NCBI RefSeq assembly: GCF_018129005.1
Contig: NZ_JAAEDL010000018.1
Coordinates: 1 to 64,000 of the forward strand
Source of the DNA: Neoroseomonas eburnea
GTDB taxonomy: Bacteria; Pseudomonadota; Alphaproteobacteria; Acetobacterales; Acetobacteraceae
Direction of reading: 5' to 3'
Length of the DNA: 64,000 nucleotides
The notes beneath the pieces were generated by a model. That model worked only from the letters and a program-made list of their open reading frames with translations. It was not told the DNA's origin and ran no database searches. Each line of letters starts with the position of its first letter. Within the stretch, counting starts at the first letter, position 1. The position numbers and the translations under genes were made by a program. Shown in pieces: positions 6,591-45,912 of this stretch.

Positions 6591-8087
6591 ATGCGACGCC
6601 TGGTCCTCCTGCTCGTTGCCGCCATGCTGTCCGCCACCGCGCCCGCGGCGGCGGAGCGCGTGGCACTCGTCATCGGCGTCGGCGGCTACCGGCATGTCCC
6701 GCCCCTCGCCAACCCGCCCAACGATGCGGAGGACGTGGCGGCGGCGCTCACGCGGCTCGGCTTCCGCACGGATCTCGTGACCGACCCCGACCGTGCGCAA
6801 TTGGAACAGGCGGTGCGACGGCTCGGCCAGGCGGCGCGCGGGGCGGAGGCGGCCATCTTCTTCTACGCCGGCCATGCGCTGGAAGCCGGCGGGCGCAACT
6901 GGCTGCTGCCGGTCGGCGCGAATATCGGCAGCGAGCGCGACCTGCGCTTCGAGGCGCTCGACATGGACATCGTCACCGAGCAGCTCGACGGCATCGCGCG
7001 GCTGTCGATCGTGCTGCTCGATGCCTGCCGGGACAATCCCTTCCGCCTGCGGCTCGCGGCCGGGACGCGCAGCGGCGCGACGGGGATGGGCCTCGGCCGG
7101 GTGCATGCGGCGGTGGGCACGCTGGTCGCCTTCTCCACCGCGCCCGGCACCGTCGCCGCCGACGGCAGCGGGCGCAACAGTCCCTTCACCGCCGCCCTGC
7201 TCCGCCGCATCGGCACGCCGGGGCTCGAGTTGCGGCAGATGCTCGCCGAGGTGCGCCGCGACGTGCGGGAGGCGACCGGCGGCCAGCAGGTGCCCTGGGA
7301 GCATTCGGCACTGGAGGGCAGCTTCTATTTCTCGGGCGGCCCGCCGGCCATCGGCGTGGAGCAGGTCTTCTGGGAGAGCGTGCGCGGCAGCGCCGACCGG
7401 CGCGACCTCGAAGCCTACCTCGCCCGCTATCCGCAGGGCGCCTTCGTCGACCTGGCGCGCAACCGGCTGCGCGCCATGGCCGCGCCGACCTCCCCGCAGG
7501 GCATCGTGCTGACGGAGGACACGCTCGCCGCCGCGCTCGCGACGCAACTGCCGCTGGATACCGCGCGCCGGATCGCCGCCGCCTACCTCTCGGAACGCGG
7601 GCCGGCCAAGGCCATTGCCATCAATCCCGCCCGGCGCCGCAGCTTCCGCGTGACCGCCGCGGCGGAAGGCAGCGACGTGGCGGAAATGGTGCTCGAACGC
7701 TGCCAGCTCTTCTACGGTTCGCCGTGCCAACTGGTCGGCCTGGACGAGGAGCTGACGCCCGGGCGCCGGCCGGAACCCATGCCGCGCCTCGCCCATGCCG
7801 GGGCCTTCGACCCCGCGCAGGTGCCGGGCCAGCCGGCCTCGCGGCGCGGGCCGGACTCCGACCTGCTGCGCTACGCCGCGGGGCGGGAGCACAAGGCGAT
7901 GGCGATCCACGGCACCGGCCGGCTCTACTGGCGCACCGGCGCCGCCAGCGACGAGGAGGCGCAGGAGGCCGCGCTGCGCGCCTGCACCGAGGCGAACGAG
8001 CGCGCCAACCGCGAAGGCCCCTGCCTGCTCTATGCCGTCGGCGACCGTGTGGTGCTGGCCGAAAGGCGGCGCGGCATCCGCCGCTGA
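6591..8087 (+). CDS. Caspase-family (peptidase C14-like) protein, exported
   Basis: This 498-aa protein starts with a signal peptide (residues 1-21, ending PAAA-E) and a caspase-like p20 fold: RVALVIGVGGYRHVPPLANP, then YAGHAL with the catalytic His at 95 and LLDACRDNPF with the catalytic Cys at 146. Both dyad residues are intact. After about residue 245 comes a helical AYLARYPQGAFVDLARNRLR segment (SPOR/TPR-like), then a Cys-containing C-terminal part of unknown type. Such bacterial orthocaspases are usually secreted or membrane-linked; the substrate is unknown. The gene stands alone and is followed by two A repeats. Confidence 0.8.
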   Translation: MRRLVLLLVAAMLSATAPAAAERVALVIGVGGYRHVPPLANPPNDAEDVAAALTRLGFRTDLVTDPDRAQLEQAVRRLGQAARGAEAAIFFYAGHALEAGGRNWLLPVGANIGSERDLRFEALDMDIVTEQLDGIARLSIVLLDACRDNPFRLRLAAGTRSGATGMGLGRVHAAVGTLVAFSTAPGTVAADGSGRNSPFTAALLRRIGTPGLELRQMLAEVRRDVREATGGQQVPWEHSALEGSFYFSGGPPAIGVEQVFWESVRGSADRRDLEAYLARYPQGAFVDLARNRLRAMAAPTSPQGIVLTEDTLAAALATQLPLDTARRIAAAYLSERGPAKAIAINPARRRSFRVTAAAEGSDVAEMVLERCQLFYGSPCQLVGLDEELTPGRRPEPMPRLAHAGAFDPAQVPGQPASRRGPDSDLLRYAAGREHKAMAIHGTGRLYWRTGAASDEEAQEAALRACTEANERANREGPCLLYAVGDRVVLAERRRGIRR

Positions 8088-40555: not shown

Positions 40556-40927
40556 TGCGCTGCCTGTTTCGTTCACTGGATCTCCGGCGGACAGGCAGGC
40601 CACCGAAGGCAAGGGCGGTGGCGTGAGAATGGCGTCCGCCTGACCGCCCGCGGACCCGACGGATGAGCAGGCCTGCTGACAACCGGGGGCCGGTGCCGCG
40701 AGAACGGCGCAAGCAGGACTTCCGCACCAGGGCGCCAGCACCCCGCCCGCGAAGGTCATGGCGTTCCGCGGGAAGGGCAGCGGATCGGCCGGCCATCGGG
40801 GGCGGTGGCTGGCAGCCCGGCGACGGCAAGCACGGGACTTCGCCACGCGAAGGCCGGCGCGCGCCCGGGATTGCCTCGCGGGCGAGAGGGCGGATGATGC
40901 CGCCCGATGAGATCGAGGACGGACCGC
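40556..40927. other. Gap with no supported gene
   Basis: There are 372 bp between the SnoaL-like gene and the glycerate kinase. Open frames are Arg/Pro-rich on both strands and have no ribosome-binding site. A GAGG at 40915-40918 serves the downstream gene. Confidence 0.4.
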
Positions 40928-42208
40928 ATGGCCCTTGACGACGCATCGGCCCGCGAGGCGCTGCGCCGCCTGTTCGACGCCGCCGTGGCGAGCGCGGATC
41001 CGCGCGTCGTGCTGGCGCGGCACCTGCCGCAGAAGCCGGCCGGCCGCGTGCTGGTGCTCGGTGCCGGCAAGTCCGCCGCCGTCATGGCCGCCGCGGTGGA
41101 GGATGCCTGGCCGGAGGTGCCGCTCTCCGGCCTCGTCGTCACGCGCTACGGCCATGGCCATCCGACCAGGCGGATCGAGGTCGTCGAGGCCTCCCACCCC
41201 GTCCCGGACGAGGCCGGCGCGATTGCGGCGCAGCGCATGCTGGACCTCGCCGCCGCGGCGGCGGCGGGCGACCTGGTGCTGTTCCTGGTCTCCGGTGGAG
41301 GCTCCTCGCTGACCACCCTGCCCGCCCCCGGGCTGGCGCTTGCCGATCTGATCGCGGTGAACAAGGCGCTGCTCGCCTCCGGCGCGACCATCCACGAGAT
41401 GAACTGCATCCGCCGACATCTCTCCGCCTTCTCGGGCGGACGGCTGGCGGCGGCGGCGCATCCGGCGCGGGTGGTGACGCTCGCCATCTCCGACGTGCCG
41501 GGGGACGACCCGACGGTGATCGCCTCCGGCCCCACCGTGCCGGATCCCTCCACCTTCGAGCAGGCCCGCGCCCTCGTCGCCCATTACCGCATGGCGCTGC
41601 CGGGGGCGGTCACCGCGCATCTCGCGCGCGCCGCGGAGGAAAGCCCCAAGCCCGGCGATCCGCGCCTGGCGGACACTGACTACCGCTTCATCGCGACGCC
41701 GCTGATGGCGCTGGAGGCCGCGGCCGGGGCCGCGCGCGGGCTGGGCTTCACGCCCCTCATCCTGGGCGACGCCCTGGAGGGCGAGGCGCGGGAGGTCGGC
41801 ACGGTGCTCGCCGGCATCGCCCTCTCCGCCCGCGCCCATGGCCTCCCCCTGCCCGCCCCCTGCGTGTTGCTCTCGGGCGGAGAGACCACGGTGACGATTC
41901 GTGCCGGGAATCCCGGCCGCGGGGGCCGGAACGGGGAATGCCTGCTCGGCTGCACCCTGGGCCTGGCCGGCGCGCCCGGCGTCTGGGCATTGATGGGCGA
42001 CACCGACGGCATCGACGGATCCGAGGAGAATGCCGGCGCCATCGCCACCCCCGACACCCTGGCGCGCGCCCGCGCCGCGGGGCTCGATCCGCGCGGCCTG
42101 CTTGCCGGCCACGACAGCCACCGCCTGTTCGCAGCACTCGGGGATCTCGTCACCACCGGCCCCACCCTGACCAACGTCAACGATTTCCGCGCGATCCTGA
42201 TCGGATGA
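40928..42208 (+). CDS. Glycerate 2-kinase (GckA/TtuD, MOFRL family)
   Basis: This 426-aa enzyme phosphorylates D-glycerate to 2-phosphoglycerate. LVLGAGKSAAVMAAAVE and FLVSGGGSSLTTLPAPG form the nucleotide- and substrate-binding parts. LSGGETTVTI and GGRNGECLLG, then DTDGIDGSEENAGA, are the MOFRL-domain signatures. In tartrate-utilisation loci TtuD lies beside pyruvate kinase TtuE, as it does here. Its 2-phosphoglycerate reaches pyruvate through enolase and the kinase 324 bp downstream. Confidence 0.9.
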   Translation: MALDDASAREALRRLFDAAVASADPRVVLARHLPQKPAGRVLVLGAGKSAAVMAAAVEDAWPEVPLSGLVVTRYGHGHPTRRIEVVEASHPVPDEAGAIAAQRMLDLAAAAAAGDLVLFLVSGGGSSLTTLPAPGLALADLIAVNKALLASGATIHEMNCIRRHLSAFSGGRLAAAAHPARVVTLAISDVPGDDPTVIASGPTVPDPSTFEQARALVAHYRMALPGAVTAHLARAAEESPKPGDPRLADTDYRFIATPLMALEAAAGAARGLGFTPLILGDALEGEAREVGTVLAGIALSARAHGLPLPAPCVLLSGGETTVTIRAGNPGRGGRNGECLLGCTLGLAGAPGVWALMGDTDGIDGSEENAGAIATPDTLARARAAGLDPRGLLAGHDSHRLFAALGDLVTTGPTLTNVNDFRAILIG

Positions 42209-42466
42209 GCGAGACCGACCGGCTGGCCGCCCGCCACCGGCGCTCCGCGGCGACGCAAGCGCGCGACCCGGACCAATGATCGCGCCCCCCCTGCGCGACG
42301 ATGCCGCCCGTGCCTGCGCGGCACTTGGCCGACACCTGGATCGCCAATGAAGCGCAGGGGGTCTTCCCCGCCGGCGCCGAGGCGCTTCCGGCTACCCGTA
42401 ATGGCCAGCCGGTCGCCTGGACCGCACCCCACGGCGGCCCGATGGCGTGGATCGCCGAACCCGAAC
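42209..42466. other. Gap upstream of the pyruvate kinase control region
   Basis: This GC-rich stretch holds only a 24-codon frame that overlaps the glycerate kinase stop (ATGA at 42205-42208), which is too short to support. After 42467 the sequence turns sharply AT-rich and carries the operator-like boxes. Confidence 0.4.
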
Positions 42467-42481
42467 CTTATTCAAGTTAAG
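42467..42481. promoter_or_regulatory. Operator-like box 1, CTTA-N7-TAAG
   Basis: CTTATTCAAGTTAAG has inverted CTTA/TAAG ends seven bases apart. It is the same spacing as box 2, with centres 41 bp apart (about four helical turns), in the AT-rich region before the pyruvate kinase. Confidence 0.5.
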
Positions 42482-42507
42482 TATCGAAAATTTCTCGGCA
42501 GTATTTT

Positions 42508-42522
42508 CTTATCCAGGATAAG
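42508..42522. promoter_or_regulatory. Operator-like box 2, perfect palindrome over the ribosome-binding site
   Basis: CTTATCC-A-GGATAAG is a perfect 7-bp inverted repeat with a single central base. It ends 9 bp before the ATG and includes the GGATAAGG Shine-Dalgarno. A 1-nt loop cannot form an RNA hairpin, so a DNA-bound dimer is the likelier reader. The helix-turn-helix at the start of the encoded protein is an obvious candidate. Confidence 0.55.
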
Positions 42523-42531
42523 GTCTCGCCC

Positions 42532-44181
42532 ATGCGCGACCCTGCCCTCGAAGAAGCCTTCGCCCGCCGCGGTGCGATCACCCGGATCGCCACCGAGCTC
42601 GGCATCTCCACCGCCGCCGTCTCCCAATGGCGCCGCGTCCCGGACGAGCGCGTCGTCGACGTCGCCCGCATCCTCGGCGTCGCACCCGAAGCCCTCCGCC
42701 CCGACCTCTCCACCCTGCCCCCGCCAAGGCCCGAAGGACCGATCCGCATGGCCTCCCGCCCCGCCTTGCGCCGCCGCCGCCGGACCAAGGTCATCGCCAC
42801 CCTCGGCCCCGCCTCCTCCACCATCGAGGTCATCGAACGCCTCTACCGCGCCGGCGCCGACGTCTTCCGCCTCAACTTCTCCCACGGCTCCCACGAGGAC
42901 CACGCCAGCCGCATCGCCATGATCCGCGAGGTCGAACGCCGCGTCGGCCGCCCCATCGGCATCCTCGCCGACGTCCAGGGCCCCAAGCTCCGCGTCGGCC
43001 GCTTCCAGGCCGGCCGCGTGCAACTCAGCCAGGGCCAGGCCTTCCGCCTCGACCTCAACCCCACCCCCGGCGACGTCCGCCGCGTCAACCTGCCGCACCC
43101 GGAGATCATCAACGCCGCCCAGATCGGCACCACCCTCCTCCTCGACGACGGCAAGCTCCGCCTCCGCGTCACCCGCGTGCGCCCCGACCACCTCGAAACC
43201 GAAGTCGTCGTCGGCGGCCCCCTCTCCGACCGCAAGGGCGTCAACGTCCCCGACGTCGCGCTGCCCATCCCCGCCCTCACCGAAAAAGACCGCGCCGACC
43301 TCGACTTCGTCCTCCCCCTCGGCATCGAATACATCGGCCTGTCCTTCGTCCAACGCCCCGAGGACGTCGCCGAAACCAAGCGCATCGCCGCCGGCCGCGC
43401 CTGGGTCATGGTGAAGATGGAAAAGCCCCAGGCGGTCGAAAACCTCGACGCCATCCTGGCGCTCACCGACTGCGTCATGGTCGCCCGCGGCGACCTCGGC
43501 GTCGAACTCCCGCCCGAGGAAGTCCCCCTGGTGCAGAAGCGCATCGTCCGCACCGCCCGCGCCCTCGGCAAGCCGGTCGTCGTCGCGACCCAGATGCTGG
43601 AATCCATGATCACGGCCCCCAGCCCCACCCGCGCCGAAGTCTCCGACGTCGGCACCGCCGTCTTCGACGGCGCGGACTGCGTGATGCTCTCGGCCGAAAC
43701 CGCCGCCGGCCAATACCCCTACGAGGCGGTGAACATGATGGACCGCATCATCGCCCGCGTGGAACAGGACAGCGACTGGCGCCGCCTCATGGACGCATCC
43801 CGCCCCGCGCCCGAGAAGTCATCCGCCGGCGCCATCGCCACCGCCGCCCGCCAGGTCGCCGAAACCATCTCCGCCGAGGTCATCGCCACCTTCTCCTCCA
43901 CCGGATCGACCACTCTGCGCGTGGCGCGCGAACGCCCCATCTGCCCGATCCTGGGCCTGACGGCGAGCGAAGCCACCGCCCGCCGCATGGCGGTGATCTG
44001 GGGCGTCCACCCGCTCGAAGTCAGCGAAATCCACTCCATGACCGAAATGGTCGGCCGCGCCATCCGCGCAGCACAGCACGAAGGCTTCGCGGGGCACGGG
44101 GACGAGGTGGTGGTGACCGCCGGGGTGCCGTTCGGCACGCCAGGGACGACGAATGCATTGCGGGTGGCGGTGGTGAAGTGA
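42532..44181 (+). CDS. pyk: Pyruvate kinase with an N-terminal Cro/YdaS-like DNA-binding domain
   Basis: This 549-aa frame has no internal stop. Residues 1-60 form a helix-turn-helix domain: ITRIATELGIS, TAAVSQWRRVP, then VARILGVAPEALRPDL, as in Cro/YdaS repressors. From residue 73 a complete pyruvate kinase follows: KVIATLGPASS, RLNFSHGSHEDH, VMVKMEKPQAVENL, MVARGDLGVELP and ATQMLESMI. It would convert phosphoenolpyruvate and ADP to pyruvate and ATP. An ATG at 42748 with GAAGGA upstream would give a normal 477-aa enzyme, so one or two products are possible. Codon use is unusually C-ending. Confidence 0.9.
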   Translation: MRDPALEEAFARRGAITRIATELGISTAAVSQWRRVPDERVVDVARILGVAPEALRPDLSTLPPPRPEGPIRMASRPALRRRRRTKVIATLGPASSTIEVIERLYRAGADVFRLNFSHGSHEDHASRIAMIREVERRVGRPIGILADVQGPKLRVGRFQAGRVQLSQGQAFRLDLNPTPGDVRRVNLPHPEIINAAQIGTTLLLDDGKLRLRVTRVRPDHLETEVVVGGPLSDRKGVNVPDVALPIPALTEKDRADLDFVLPLGIEYIGLSFVQRPEDVAETKRIAAGRAWVMVKMEKPQAVENLDAILALTDCVMVARGDLGVELPPEEVPLVQKRIVRTARALGKPVVVATQMLESMITAPSPTRAEVSDVGTAVFDGADCVMLSAETAAGQYPYEAVNMMDRIIARVEQDSDWRRLMDASRPAPEKSSAGAIATAARQVAETISAEVIATFSSTGSTTLRVARERPICPILGLTASEATARRMAVIWGVHPLEVSEIHSMTEMVGRAIRAAQHEGFAGHGDEVVVTAGVPFGTPGTTNALRVAVVK

Positions 44182-44332: not shown

Positions 44333-44989
44333 CTATTCCCCGGCGAGGGGCAGTTGCGCCTGATTGCGCTGAGAGTGATGCGAATAGGTGTCCCAGCCGA
44401 TTTCGTAATCCTCAGCCTGATTACCCCAGCCGGTCCACCCTGGCCGCGTGCCTCTCGCGAACAATTCAAGATACGGCCCGCGGCTACACGACTCTACAAT
44501 GTCATAGAATTCGTCGGGCTTGCGCGAATGCTCGCGCTTGCGGGTCGCGAGTAAATTCACTTGCCGCCGCCCAGGCGCCTCGGTCCTAGCGTTGCGACCG
44601 CGCACGCCGAATAGGACGAGTTCAGTGACATTCCGGAAATAGAAGCCTACGCCGCGCCCGTCGCTGCCCCCGTCCTTGCGGATCTTGTGCCAGACGATGT
44701 TCGACTTGTAATCGAAGCCCCACGCGCGCATCACTTGCAGCCCCTCGGGCAACAAAGCATTCGGAACCCAGAGATAAAGGTGTGCTGTCGCCGCGAGAAC
44801 GGATTGAACCGGGAGTTCCATAATCTCCGGCAGGTCCATTGTGCCATAGCGCGAAAGGCGCCGATGTTCCGGCGCCATCTTTCCCGTGCGGTTTGTAAAG
44901 CGCCAAGGCGGGTCGGCAAGCACCGTGCCGAATTTACGGCTCGAGAGCGCCTCCCGGAACTCAGCCGCAGCGTCAGGCACCTTCGTCAT
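44333..44989 (-). CDS. MT-A70 family adenine-N6 DNA methyltransferase
   Basis: This 218-aa protein methylates adenine with S-adenosylmethionine. The catalytic motif is ADPPW (FGTVLADPPWRFTNRTG). Further on, HLYLWVPNALLPEGLQVMRA and the cofactor-binding ELFARGTRPGWTGWGNQ match the MT-A70 group, which includes M.MunI-type modification enzymes. It overlaps the upstream endonuclease gene by 17 bp, so the two form a type II restriction-modification operon, and this half protects the host sites. GC content is visibly lower than in neighbours, which suggests transfer. Confidence 0.9.
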   Translation of the reverse strand: MTKVPDAAAEFREALSSRKFGTVLADPPWRFTNRTGKMAPEHRRLSRYGTMDLPEIMELPVQSVLAATAHLYLWVPNALLPEGLQVMRAWGFDYKSNIVWHKIRKDGGSDGRGVGFYFRNVTELVLFGVRGRNARTEAPGRRQVNLLATRKREHSRKPDEFYDIVESCSRGPYLELFARGTRPGWTGWGNQAEDYEIGWDTYSHHSQRNQAQLPLAGE

Positions 44990-45794
44990 CAGTCCAATCC
45001 TTTATGCAGCGCGGGGTGATGCCAACTGCTAGAACCGGGCACGCCCCGTTGCGGCCCGCATTAAGGCGATACAGCAACTTGCCCATCCAGGTTGTGCTCG
45101 CCCCGTATTTGCTTGCAGTCTGTCGCACTGTGCCTTTCTTCGTCGTCTCTGGCTGGCCGTCCTTGCGAAGTGCTGGCCCAAGTTTCCGGAACACCGGGTT
45201 GAGAGAAGCTGAACGAGTGACGAGAACAGCCACGTCAATCACGCCACAAGTCGCAAAGGCGCTGAACGCGTATAGGTCGCGGTCAAAAGTCTGATCTTTG
45301 GAATTCCATTCCAGGTCGAACGCAACCTTGCCCTTCACATAGTCGATCTTGTGGCCGTCGAGGAAACGCTCTCGCCGCAATTCCTGCCGACGTTTCTCAA
45401 TGATTGGCTTGCCTGATCGCTTCAGGCCGACTTGTTCTCGCCAATCCAGTCGCACGAGCAGGTCACCGTGGATCGCAGTCTCATGCCACCCCTGCGGCCG
45501 CAACGACGTGGACAGCAGTTTCGGAATGTCACTCTCGTTGCCTCCCGCTGTGCGAATCATATGCGTCGTGATGGAAAACTGCCTAAGCGCGTCCATCAAC
45601 TCAGCACAATGCGTCGGGTGAGCCCGGCTCAGGATCATCGCAGCGCCGCGATAGCTGTGAATTTCGTAACGATCGCGGATATCATGAGGGATTGCTGCGT
45701 CTACGATTCCCGATGGATCGGCAGCATCGTTTGGCGCGCCGGCAACGCCGCCACCATCGAGTTCTTCGTCGTCCTCATCGTCAACGTCGGACAT
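44973..45794 (-). CDS. BglII/BstYI family type II restriction endonuclease
   Basis: This 273-aa predicted endonuclease has the family core IDYVKGKVAFDLEWNSKDQ followed by FDRDLYAFSAFATCGVIDVA, and the C-terminal KYGASTTWMGKLLYRLNAG and CPVLAVGI blocks. BglII and BstYI cut AGATCT and RGATCY, so a GATC-centred hexamer is the likely target. The acidic start MSDVDDEDDEELDGG follows GGAGAG directly and was chosen over a further upstream ATG at 45881. The methyltransferase gene overlaps its 3-prime end. Confidence 0.85.
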   Translation of the reverse strand: MSDVDDEDDEELDGGGVAGAPNDAADPSGIVDAAIPHDIRDRYEIHSYRGAAMILSRAHPTHCAELMDALRQFSITTHMIRTAGGNESDIPKLLSTSLRPQGWHETAIHGDLLVRLDWREQVGLKRSGKPIIEKRRQELRRERFLDGHKIDYVKGKVAFDLEWNSKDQTFDRDLYAFSAFATCGVIDVAVLVTRSASLNPVFRKLGPALRKDGQPETTKKGTVRQTASKYGASTTWMGKLLYRLNAGRNGACPVLAVGITPRCIKDWTDDEGA

Positions 45795-45912
45795 GTCTCT
45801 CCGATCAGCAACCACGGCGCAGACGAATGCGCTAACGGCAGCACGACTCGGCATTGCCACCGAGCTTAGCCTGTATGGCACCGGCTCTGGCGGAAAGAGG
45901 TTGTATTTCCGA

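Follow-up and report, generated by a model that had tools for sequence, protein, structure and literature searches.

Can a glycolytic enzyme act directly on the promoter of its own gene? The question is raised by a locus in a 64,000-nucleotide stretch of Neoroseomonas eburnea DNA (contig NZ_JAAEDL010000018.1, positions 1–64,000; hereafter the window), in which a single uninterrupted frame of 549 codons joins an N-terminal Cro/YdaS-type helix–turn–helix (HTH) domain to a complete pyruvate kinase (Table 1). A first-pass annotation of the window had read this frame as a true fusion, the product of which could act on its own promoter. The fusion is borne out by Pfam matches to both halves of the open frame and a TIGR match to the kinase half. 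The action on the promoter is strongly supported by sequence comparison, since promoter palindromes are found only where the HTH is present and, in this genome, exact sites occur nowhere else. In our view, this pyruvate kinase is very probably bifunctional and regulates its own gene, most likely as a repressor.

The palindromes were first noticed when the 100 bases ahead of the start codon were inspected at 44 HTH-carrying loci. They have the form CTTA-N7-TAAG and two of them, operators 1 and 2, precede the gene in the window. To avoid relying on a motif picked by eye, we counted every 4 bp arm with spacers of 0–16 in 56 non-redundant upstream regions of HTH-kinase genes, drawn from 80 such that at least 22 of 90 bases differed. 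CTTA-N7-TAAG was present at 54 of these 56 loci (84 sites in all), with the next-best motif in 12, and no exact copy was found within 250 bp upstream of 26 HTH-less relatives. The same association is seen inside two mixed genera: in g4, four HTH loci carry both sites with scores of at least 7/8 and three HTH-less loci carry none, and in g45 one HTH locus has both sites at this level and five HTH-less loci have none. The most conserved upstream bases are the palindrome arms themselves, the 7 bp centres vary freely, and at every locus where operator 2 scores at least 6, its first base lies 23 or 24 bases ahead of the ATG. A direct repeat of the type TTAA-N7-TTAA, the motif of CtrA, was considered and rejected, as the sites are inverted repeats.

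The exact motif occurs twice in the 5.86 Mb genome of this strain, both times before this gene. When spacers of 1–20 are allowed there are 12 places in total, and spacer 7 gives these two only. A reversed-pattern control gave 16 matches in the same genome, which is not a fair expectation because TTA and TAA are rare in the coding frames of GC-rich DNA; the rarity of the site was judged instead by the spacer comparison and the arm scan. In the family set of 299 genomes, 288 of which have a kinase match, the paired motif (gap 20–32) was found at 15 places in 15 genomes, one in each, and by comparison of coordinates every one of them immediately precedes an HTH-kinase gene; here the reversed pattern gave no match.

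Independent support comes from the same HTH on other proteins. Its profile matched 12 of 385 class-level genomes and 28 of 398 phylum-level genomes (the genome of this strain is counted in both), and the best non-kinase matches are 13 loci in which the HTH stands ahead of a TorD/NarJ-type chaperone domain (PF02613; five confirmed by Pfam and the rest judged from translations). They lie in other Alphaproteobacteria-level genomes (L159, L160, L161, L162, L164, L166, L170, L171, L173–L176 and L178). The arm scan found ATAG-N7-CTAT upstream of 12 of the 13, the next-best motif being CATA with a spacer of 9 (six loci), which can nest in the former. The TorD fusions thus share the geometry with other arms, which argues that a 4-7-4 palindrome next to the gene that encodes it is what this type of HTH recognises. 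In a single case (L165:1-1689, minus strand), the HTH is found on a bifunctional NAD(P)H-hydrate epimerase/dehydratase (YjeF_N + Carb_kinase); upstream of this gene, a TTGACA is flanked by two GTAAGCATAACTT repeats. Two further YdaS matches over the cut-off, at G499:C1:4188795-4188983 and G425:C34:72288-72467 in frames of 277 and 346 amino acids, are possible further fusions.

Is the extension a genuine domain, and does the enzyme still work? Taken alone, residues 1–73 match both Pfam families of this type (PF14549 and PF15943), P22_Cro with 34.6 bits for a gathering score of 30.2 and, narrowly, YdaS_toxin with 30.1 bits for a gathering score of 30; when the whole protein is scored, the two matches (27.7 and 25.8 bits, respectively) fall just under these thresholds. 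By profile, the HTH comes closest among solved structures to XPH1 (PDB entry 5w8y), to the Cro protein of entry 3bd1 and to the phage Cro of entry 1rzs, which we take to be that of P22, with E values from 5e-7 to 8e-7. Residues 83–549 form a full-length kinase, with 499.6 bits for the TIGR01064 equivalog (cut-off 306.4) and matches to both PF00224 and PF02887, and residues 83–548 align end to end with PDB entry 7oo1 (E value 2e-159). R113, N115, S117, K295, E297, D321 and T353, whose active-site roles we take over from the muscle enzyme, are invariant in 43 aligned full-length relatives. As this gene is moreover the only pyruvate kinase match in the genome, the fusion protein should be the working pyruvate kinase of the cell and not a decayed copy. 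Enzyme and DNA-binding domain are present in one chain, as in trigger enzymes of the PutA kind.

The N-terminal domain was sought in the pyruvate kinases of the Acetobacteraceae, as the first-pass annotation had suggested, and the kinase match starts at residue 1, HTH included, in at least 44 of the 299 family genomes, from 13 genera. The first 62 residues include 17 that never vary across 44 sequences, A28-A29-V30-S31-Q32-W33 among them. For 15 within-genus pairs (two rows being used twice), the ratio of nonsynonymous to synonymous change (pN/pS) comes to 0.152 in the HTH, 0.053 in the HTH core (residues 13–40) and 0.524 in the linker; the two kinase domains have ratios of 0.123 and 0.149. 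Purifying selection acts on the HTH much as it does on the enzyme, and these values indicate that the HTH sequence itself is what is preserved, with a stricter constraint on the DNA-facing core than on the enzyme. With an extension that aligns from residue 1, 17 invariant residues and a pN/pS of 0.15, the fusion is no chance read-through.

Named genomes were scanned with the HTH alignment using one peptide pattern, [TPA]AAVSQW[QRK]R, so that the 94 relatives found, of which 80 were kept, are near relatives only. At all 80 loci the frame continues into pyruvate kinase, as a motif test showed for 79 and the translation for L147. The named carriers belong to Roseomonas, Neoroseomonas, Falsiroseomonas, Plastoroseomonas, Pararoseomonas, Belnapia, Siccirubricoccus, Humitalea and Paeniroseomonas, and the others are further Acetobacteraceae and less closely named metagenome-assembled genomes. 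Outside the family, no HTH-kinase was found among the matches from the class-level and phylum-level genomes; nine phylum-level matches without a locus lie in open frames of at most 347 amino acids, too short for such a protein. Among plasmids, the best ten matches of 168 records all begin at residue 49 or later and not at the start of the HTH. Among the open-access papers listed in a literature search, none was an earlier report of an HTH-pyruvate kinase.

How might binding at these operators affect transcription? When 54 non-redundant loci are aligned on operator 2, T, G and G stand 12 to 10 bases before it in 62, 50 and 68% of cases, and its right arm is extended to TAAGnT, with the last T in 79%. 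Between the presumed −35 and −10 hexamers there are 18 bases, and seven more separate the latter from the ATG. Apart from the AAG(G) that belongs to the operator arm, no Shine–Dalgarno-like run precedes the ATG. This suggests a promoter whose −10 element overlaps operator 2 and, with a start near the ATG, a leaderless mRNA.

We propose that the protein, a predicted active pyruvate kinase, doubles as a transcription factor for its own gene. Its N-terminal Cro-type HTH would bind, as dimers, the two 15 bp operators (42467–42481 and 42508–42522), and occupation of operator 2 should block RNA polymerase because this site overlaps the presumed −10, resulting in negative autoregulation. The start-to-start distance between the operators is 41 bp at 23 of the 40 non-redundant loci where both score at least 7/8 (range 37–42), or about four helical turns. 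This spacing would fit binding on one face of the DNA, perhaps by one tetramer: a pyruvate kinase tetramer, carrying four HTHs, could hold both operators.

We may wonder at this stage what the enzyme half contributes to such a repressor. There is about an even chance that it provides pure homeostasis, the kinase repressing its own gene according to its concentration, with the enzyme half serving to oligomerise it and no metabolite affecting DNA binding. Stand-alone phage Cro relatives act without small ligands, we saw nothing in the fusion that is particular to ligand coupling, and its weakly constrained linker does not favour tight allosteric coupling. However, fusion to an enzyme rather than to a plain oligomerisation domain would be an odd route to concentration sensing, and PutA, at once enzyme and repressor, is switched by its substrate. 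Pyruvate kinases in general are responsive to ligands. The first-pass annotation had suggested that the fusion could sense phosphoenolpyruvate (PEP), pyruvate or sugar phosphates, and it is plausible, at somewhat under an even chance, that a metabolite such as PEP alters its DNA binding. More tentatively, a tetramer could clamp the two operators over the leaderless promoter and a change of shape caused by substrate or effector could open the clamp, so that PEP would set pyk transcription with a reused Cro cassette.

Autogenous activation, or another use of promoter contacts in place of repression, seems improbable to us: operator 1 does lie upstream of the presumed −35, the usual place for an activator, but it is the better-kept operator 2 that overlaps the presumed −10. 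We hold it slightly more improbable again that the sites are bound by another regulator, the kinase HTH binding elsewhere or serving otherwise. Palindromes alone do not identify their binder, and the genome holds both imperfect copies of the site and one weak YdaS match below the cut-off. Against this, sites and HTH are gained and lost together, even inside genera, the HTH has no close paralogue in the genome (by profile search, the next-best match has an E value of 0.086), and where this HTH is carried by another protein, the accompanying site keeps the geometry but has different arms.

Several observations nevertheless weigh against autogenous regulation through two dedicated operators. Many sites are imperfect: among 44 loci, operator 2 scores 8/8 in 33, 7/8 in seven and lower in four, and operator 1 scores 8/8 in 19, 7/8 in five and lower in 20, so that many loci may have a single operator. 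In genus g4 the spacing is 38–39 bp, out of helical phase, and genus g25 has the weakest sites among the HTH carriers. One HTH-less locus (L058) has a 7/8 site. Exact sites also occur elsewhere: the 44 HTH genomes together hold 119, only 52 of them being one of the two operators of this gene, and the 26 HTH-less genomes hold 22. In the genome of this strain, 30 further places match with one mismatch and a 683-residue frame has a weak YdaS match (22 bits for a cut-off of 30), so other targets or binders may exist. A scan of 42200–42560 for an E. coli-type promoter found none. Finally, in a tree of the kinase part the HTH carriers do not form a single clade; at least seven changes are needed, two of them forced by well-supported branches, so that losses, replacements or repeated transfer must be assumed.

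Two further observations concern these sites. Of the exact sites in the 44 HTH genomes, 67 are not at pyk, and nine of these were inspected for a wider regulon; no recurrent promoter target was seen, and seven of the nine are spanned by an open frame of at least 400 bases. In genus g25 (L034, L035, L036, L038 and L039), four of the five loci have TAGA or TAGG, not TAAG, as the right arm of operator 2, and this drift is accompanied by changed HTH residues (RRGTGAKIATALGI), a possible natural case of co-evolution between operator and domain.

The weakest alternative, to which we attach next to no weight, is that an ordinary pyruvate kinase begins at Met73 and that the upstream frame is open by chance in GC-rich DNA: the ATG at 42748 is preceded by GAAGGA and long chance frames are common in this DNA, but the HTH core has a pN/pS of 0.053, 17 residues are invariant in the 44 HTH sequences, the N-terminal part has Pfam and PDB matches, and the ATG at Met73 is missing in 18 of the 44 loci. 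The GAAGGA and the in-frame ATG are present as the first-pass annotation had described them, and it had proposed that they may give a second, shorter product of the gene. Conservation does not support this idea: the homologous ATG is kept in 26 of the 44 HTH loci, shifted by one codon in one, replaced by TTG in three and absent in 14, and on this ground we rejected the ATG at 42748 as the conserved start of a second product. A short form may be made from Met73 in this strain. Several HTH-less relatives (for example L054, L060, L065 and L070) have a methionine at the equivalent place, and the GAAGGA and Met73 look like the former ribosome-binding site and start of an HTH-less pyk gene, now read as linker.

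Where did the HTH come from? Its nearest phage match is in Komagataeibacter phage phiKM1 (49% identity over 59 residues, E value 2e-12), in an unannotated stand-alone frame at 7111–7287 (locus L186:1501-1677) that is divergent from an XRE regulator gene. This frame starts with MRD, like the fusion, and has a 15 bp palindrome, CTAAACATGGTTTAG, upstream, which leaves 11 bases before its ATG. The gene upstream of pyk, presumably a glycerate kinase as judged from its domain pair, is directly adjacent in 22 of the 26 HTH-less relatives, and in 13 of these 22 it ends at most 25 bases from the first aligned kinase codon, in an operon-like arrangement. The 31 HTH carriers with this neighbour have a gap of 56–71 bases in 21 cases and of 74–1035 bases in ten. 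A gap of 56–71 bases would be just room for an operator, a promoter and an operator. Most likely, the cro gene of a temperate phage was captured at the junction of the glycerate kinase gene and pyk and brought its operator and promoter with it. Such a capture would explain the gap sizes, the presumed fossil start in the linker and the likeness to phiKM1; pyk would have gained a promoter of its own and its old ribosome-binding site would have become linker. Gain, loss and replacement of the HTH appear indistinguishable in these comparisons, with genera g4 and g45 mixed. A search for HTH remnants in the 1200 bases upstream of the 26 HTH-less loci gave six weak matches (best E value 0.001), all on the opposite strand.

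At the locus in the window the gap between the glycerate kinase gene and the fusion is 323 bases, and about 260 of these lie between the glycerate kinase stop and operator 1 (42209–42466); in 21 of the 31 HTH carriers with this neighbour the whole gap is far shorter, at 56–71 bases. Downstream on the other strand (44333–45881), an MT-A70-type methyltransferase lies next to a BglII-type restriction endonuclease, a probable restriction–modification pair. The coordinates of the features are collected in Table 1.

Table 1. Features of the pyk locus, in positions of the window.
Feature	Position	Strand	Basis
Glycerate kinase (presumed), DUF4147 + MOFRL (TtuD) type, frequent upstream neighbour of pyk	40907..42208	+	domains
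Operator 1, CTTA-N7-TAAG palindrome, 15 bp	42467..42481		upstream comparison, motif scans
Presumed −35 element, TCGGCA here	42495..42500	+	modest TGG peak in 54 aligned loci
Operator 2, CTTA-N7-TAAG palindrome, 15 bp, ends 9 nt before ATG	42508..42522		upstream comparison, motif scans
Presumed −10 element, TAAGGT (TAAGnT in most loci)	42519..42524	+	overlaps operator 2 right arm
HTH-pyruvate kinase fusion gene, 549 aa, ATG start	42532..44181	+	single uninterrupted frame, 549 codons
Cro/YdaS-type HTH, residues 1–58	42532..42705	+	Pfam on residues 1–73, PDB relatives, alignment
Linker, residues 59–80, weakly constrained	42706..42771	+	pN/pS 0.52 for residues 59–79
GAAGGA (42733–42738) and in-frame ATG 42748 (Met73), presumed relict ribosome-binding site and start codon of an ancestral HTH-less pyk	42733..42750	+	inferred
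Pyruvate kinase barrel and C-terminal domains, residues 83–549	42778..44178	+	Pfam, TIGR01064, active-site conservation

The fusion can be compared with several known systems. PutA has a ribbon–helix–helix domain, acts in amino-acid catabolism and is switched by its substrate, whereas the protein studied here has a Cro-type HTH and is a core glycolytic kinase. As in PutA, described in an excerpt of its source as a dehydrogenase and a repressor in one protein (PMC6978683), a metabolic enzyme is also the predicted direct repressor of its own gene or operon, with an operator at its own promoter. BzdR, as far as an extract of PMC3602430 describes it, is built alike, with an N-terminal DNA-binding domain, a linker and a kinase-related (shikimate-kinase-like) domain, and the loss of kinase activity is presented there as essential to its evolution as a regulator; in contrast, the active-site positions of the fusion are invariant and it is the sole pyruvate kinase match of its genome. 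With phage Cro and YdaS, the latter described as a Cro analogue in the part of PMC8630535 that we draw on, the fusion shares an HTH that is recognised by profile (1rzs, 3bd1 and the phiKM1 frame) and, in the case of phiKM1, a palindrome close to the start of its own gene; these relatives, however, are stand-alone proteins of about 60–80 residues, and here the domain is fused to a 470-residue enzyme. Ordinary pyruvate kinases (PDB entries 7oo1 and 7ueh) resemble the kinase part and have no HTH. Finally, the HTH-TorD and HTH-NAD(P)HX-repair fusions have the same kind of N-terminal HTH and a 15 bp palindrome upstream, and differ in the partner protein and in the arms (ATAG/CTAT for TorD and others in the single L165 case).

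The control of pyruvate kinase is taught as allosteric, with its gene under separate regulators; here, throughout a whole bacterial group, the enzyme seems to be its own regulator. The locus is also a candidate for a part of phage immunity that was taken, operator included, into central metabolism. A Cro HTH with a 15 bp 4-7-4 site recurs on other metabolic proteins and offers a module that can be searched for. If the clamp model is true, this Cro module, fitted independently to TorD-type chaperones and to NAD(P)HX repair, would be a reusable cassette for autoregulation.
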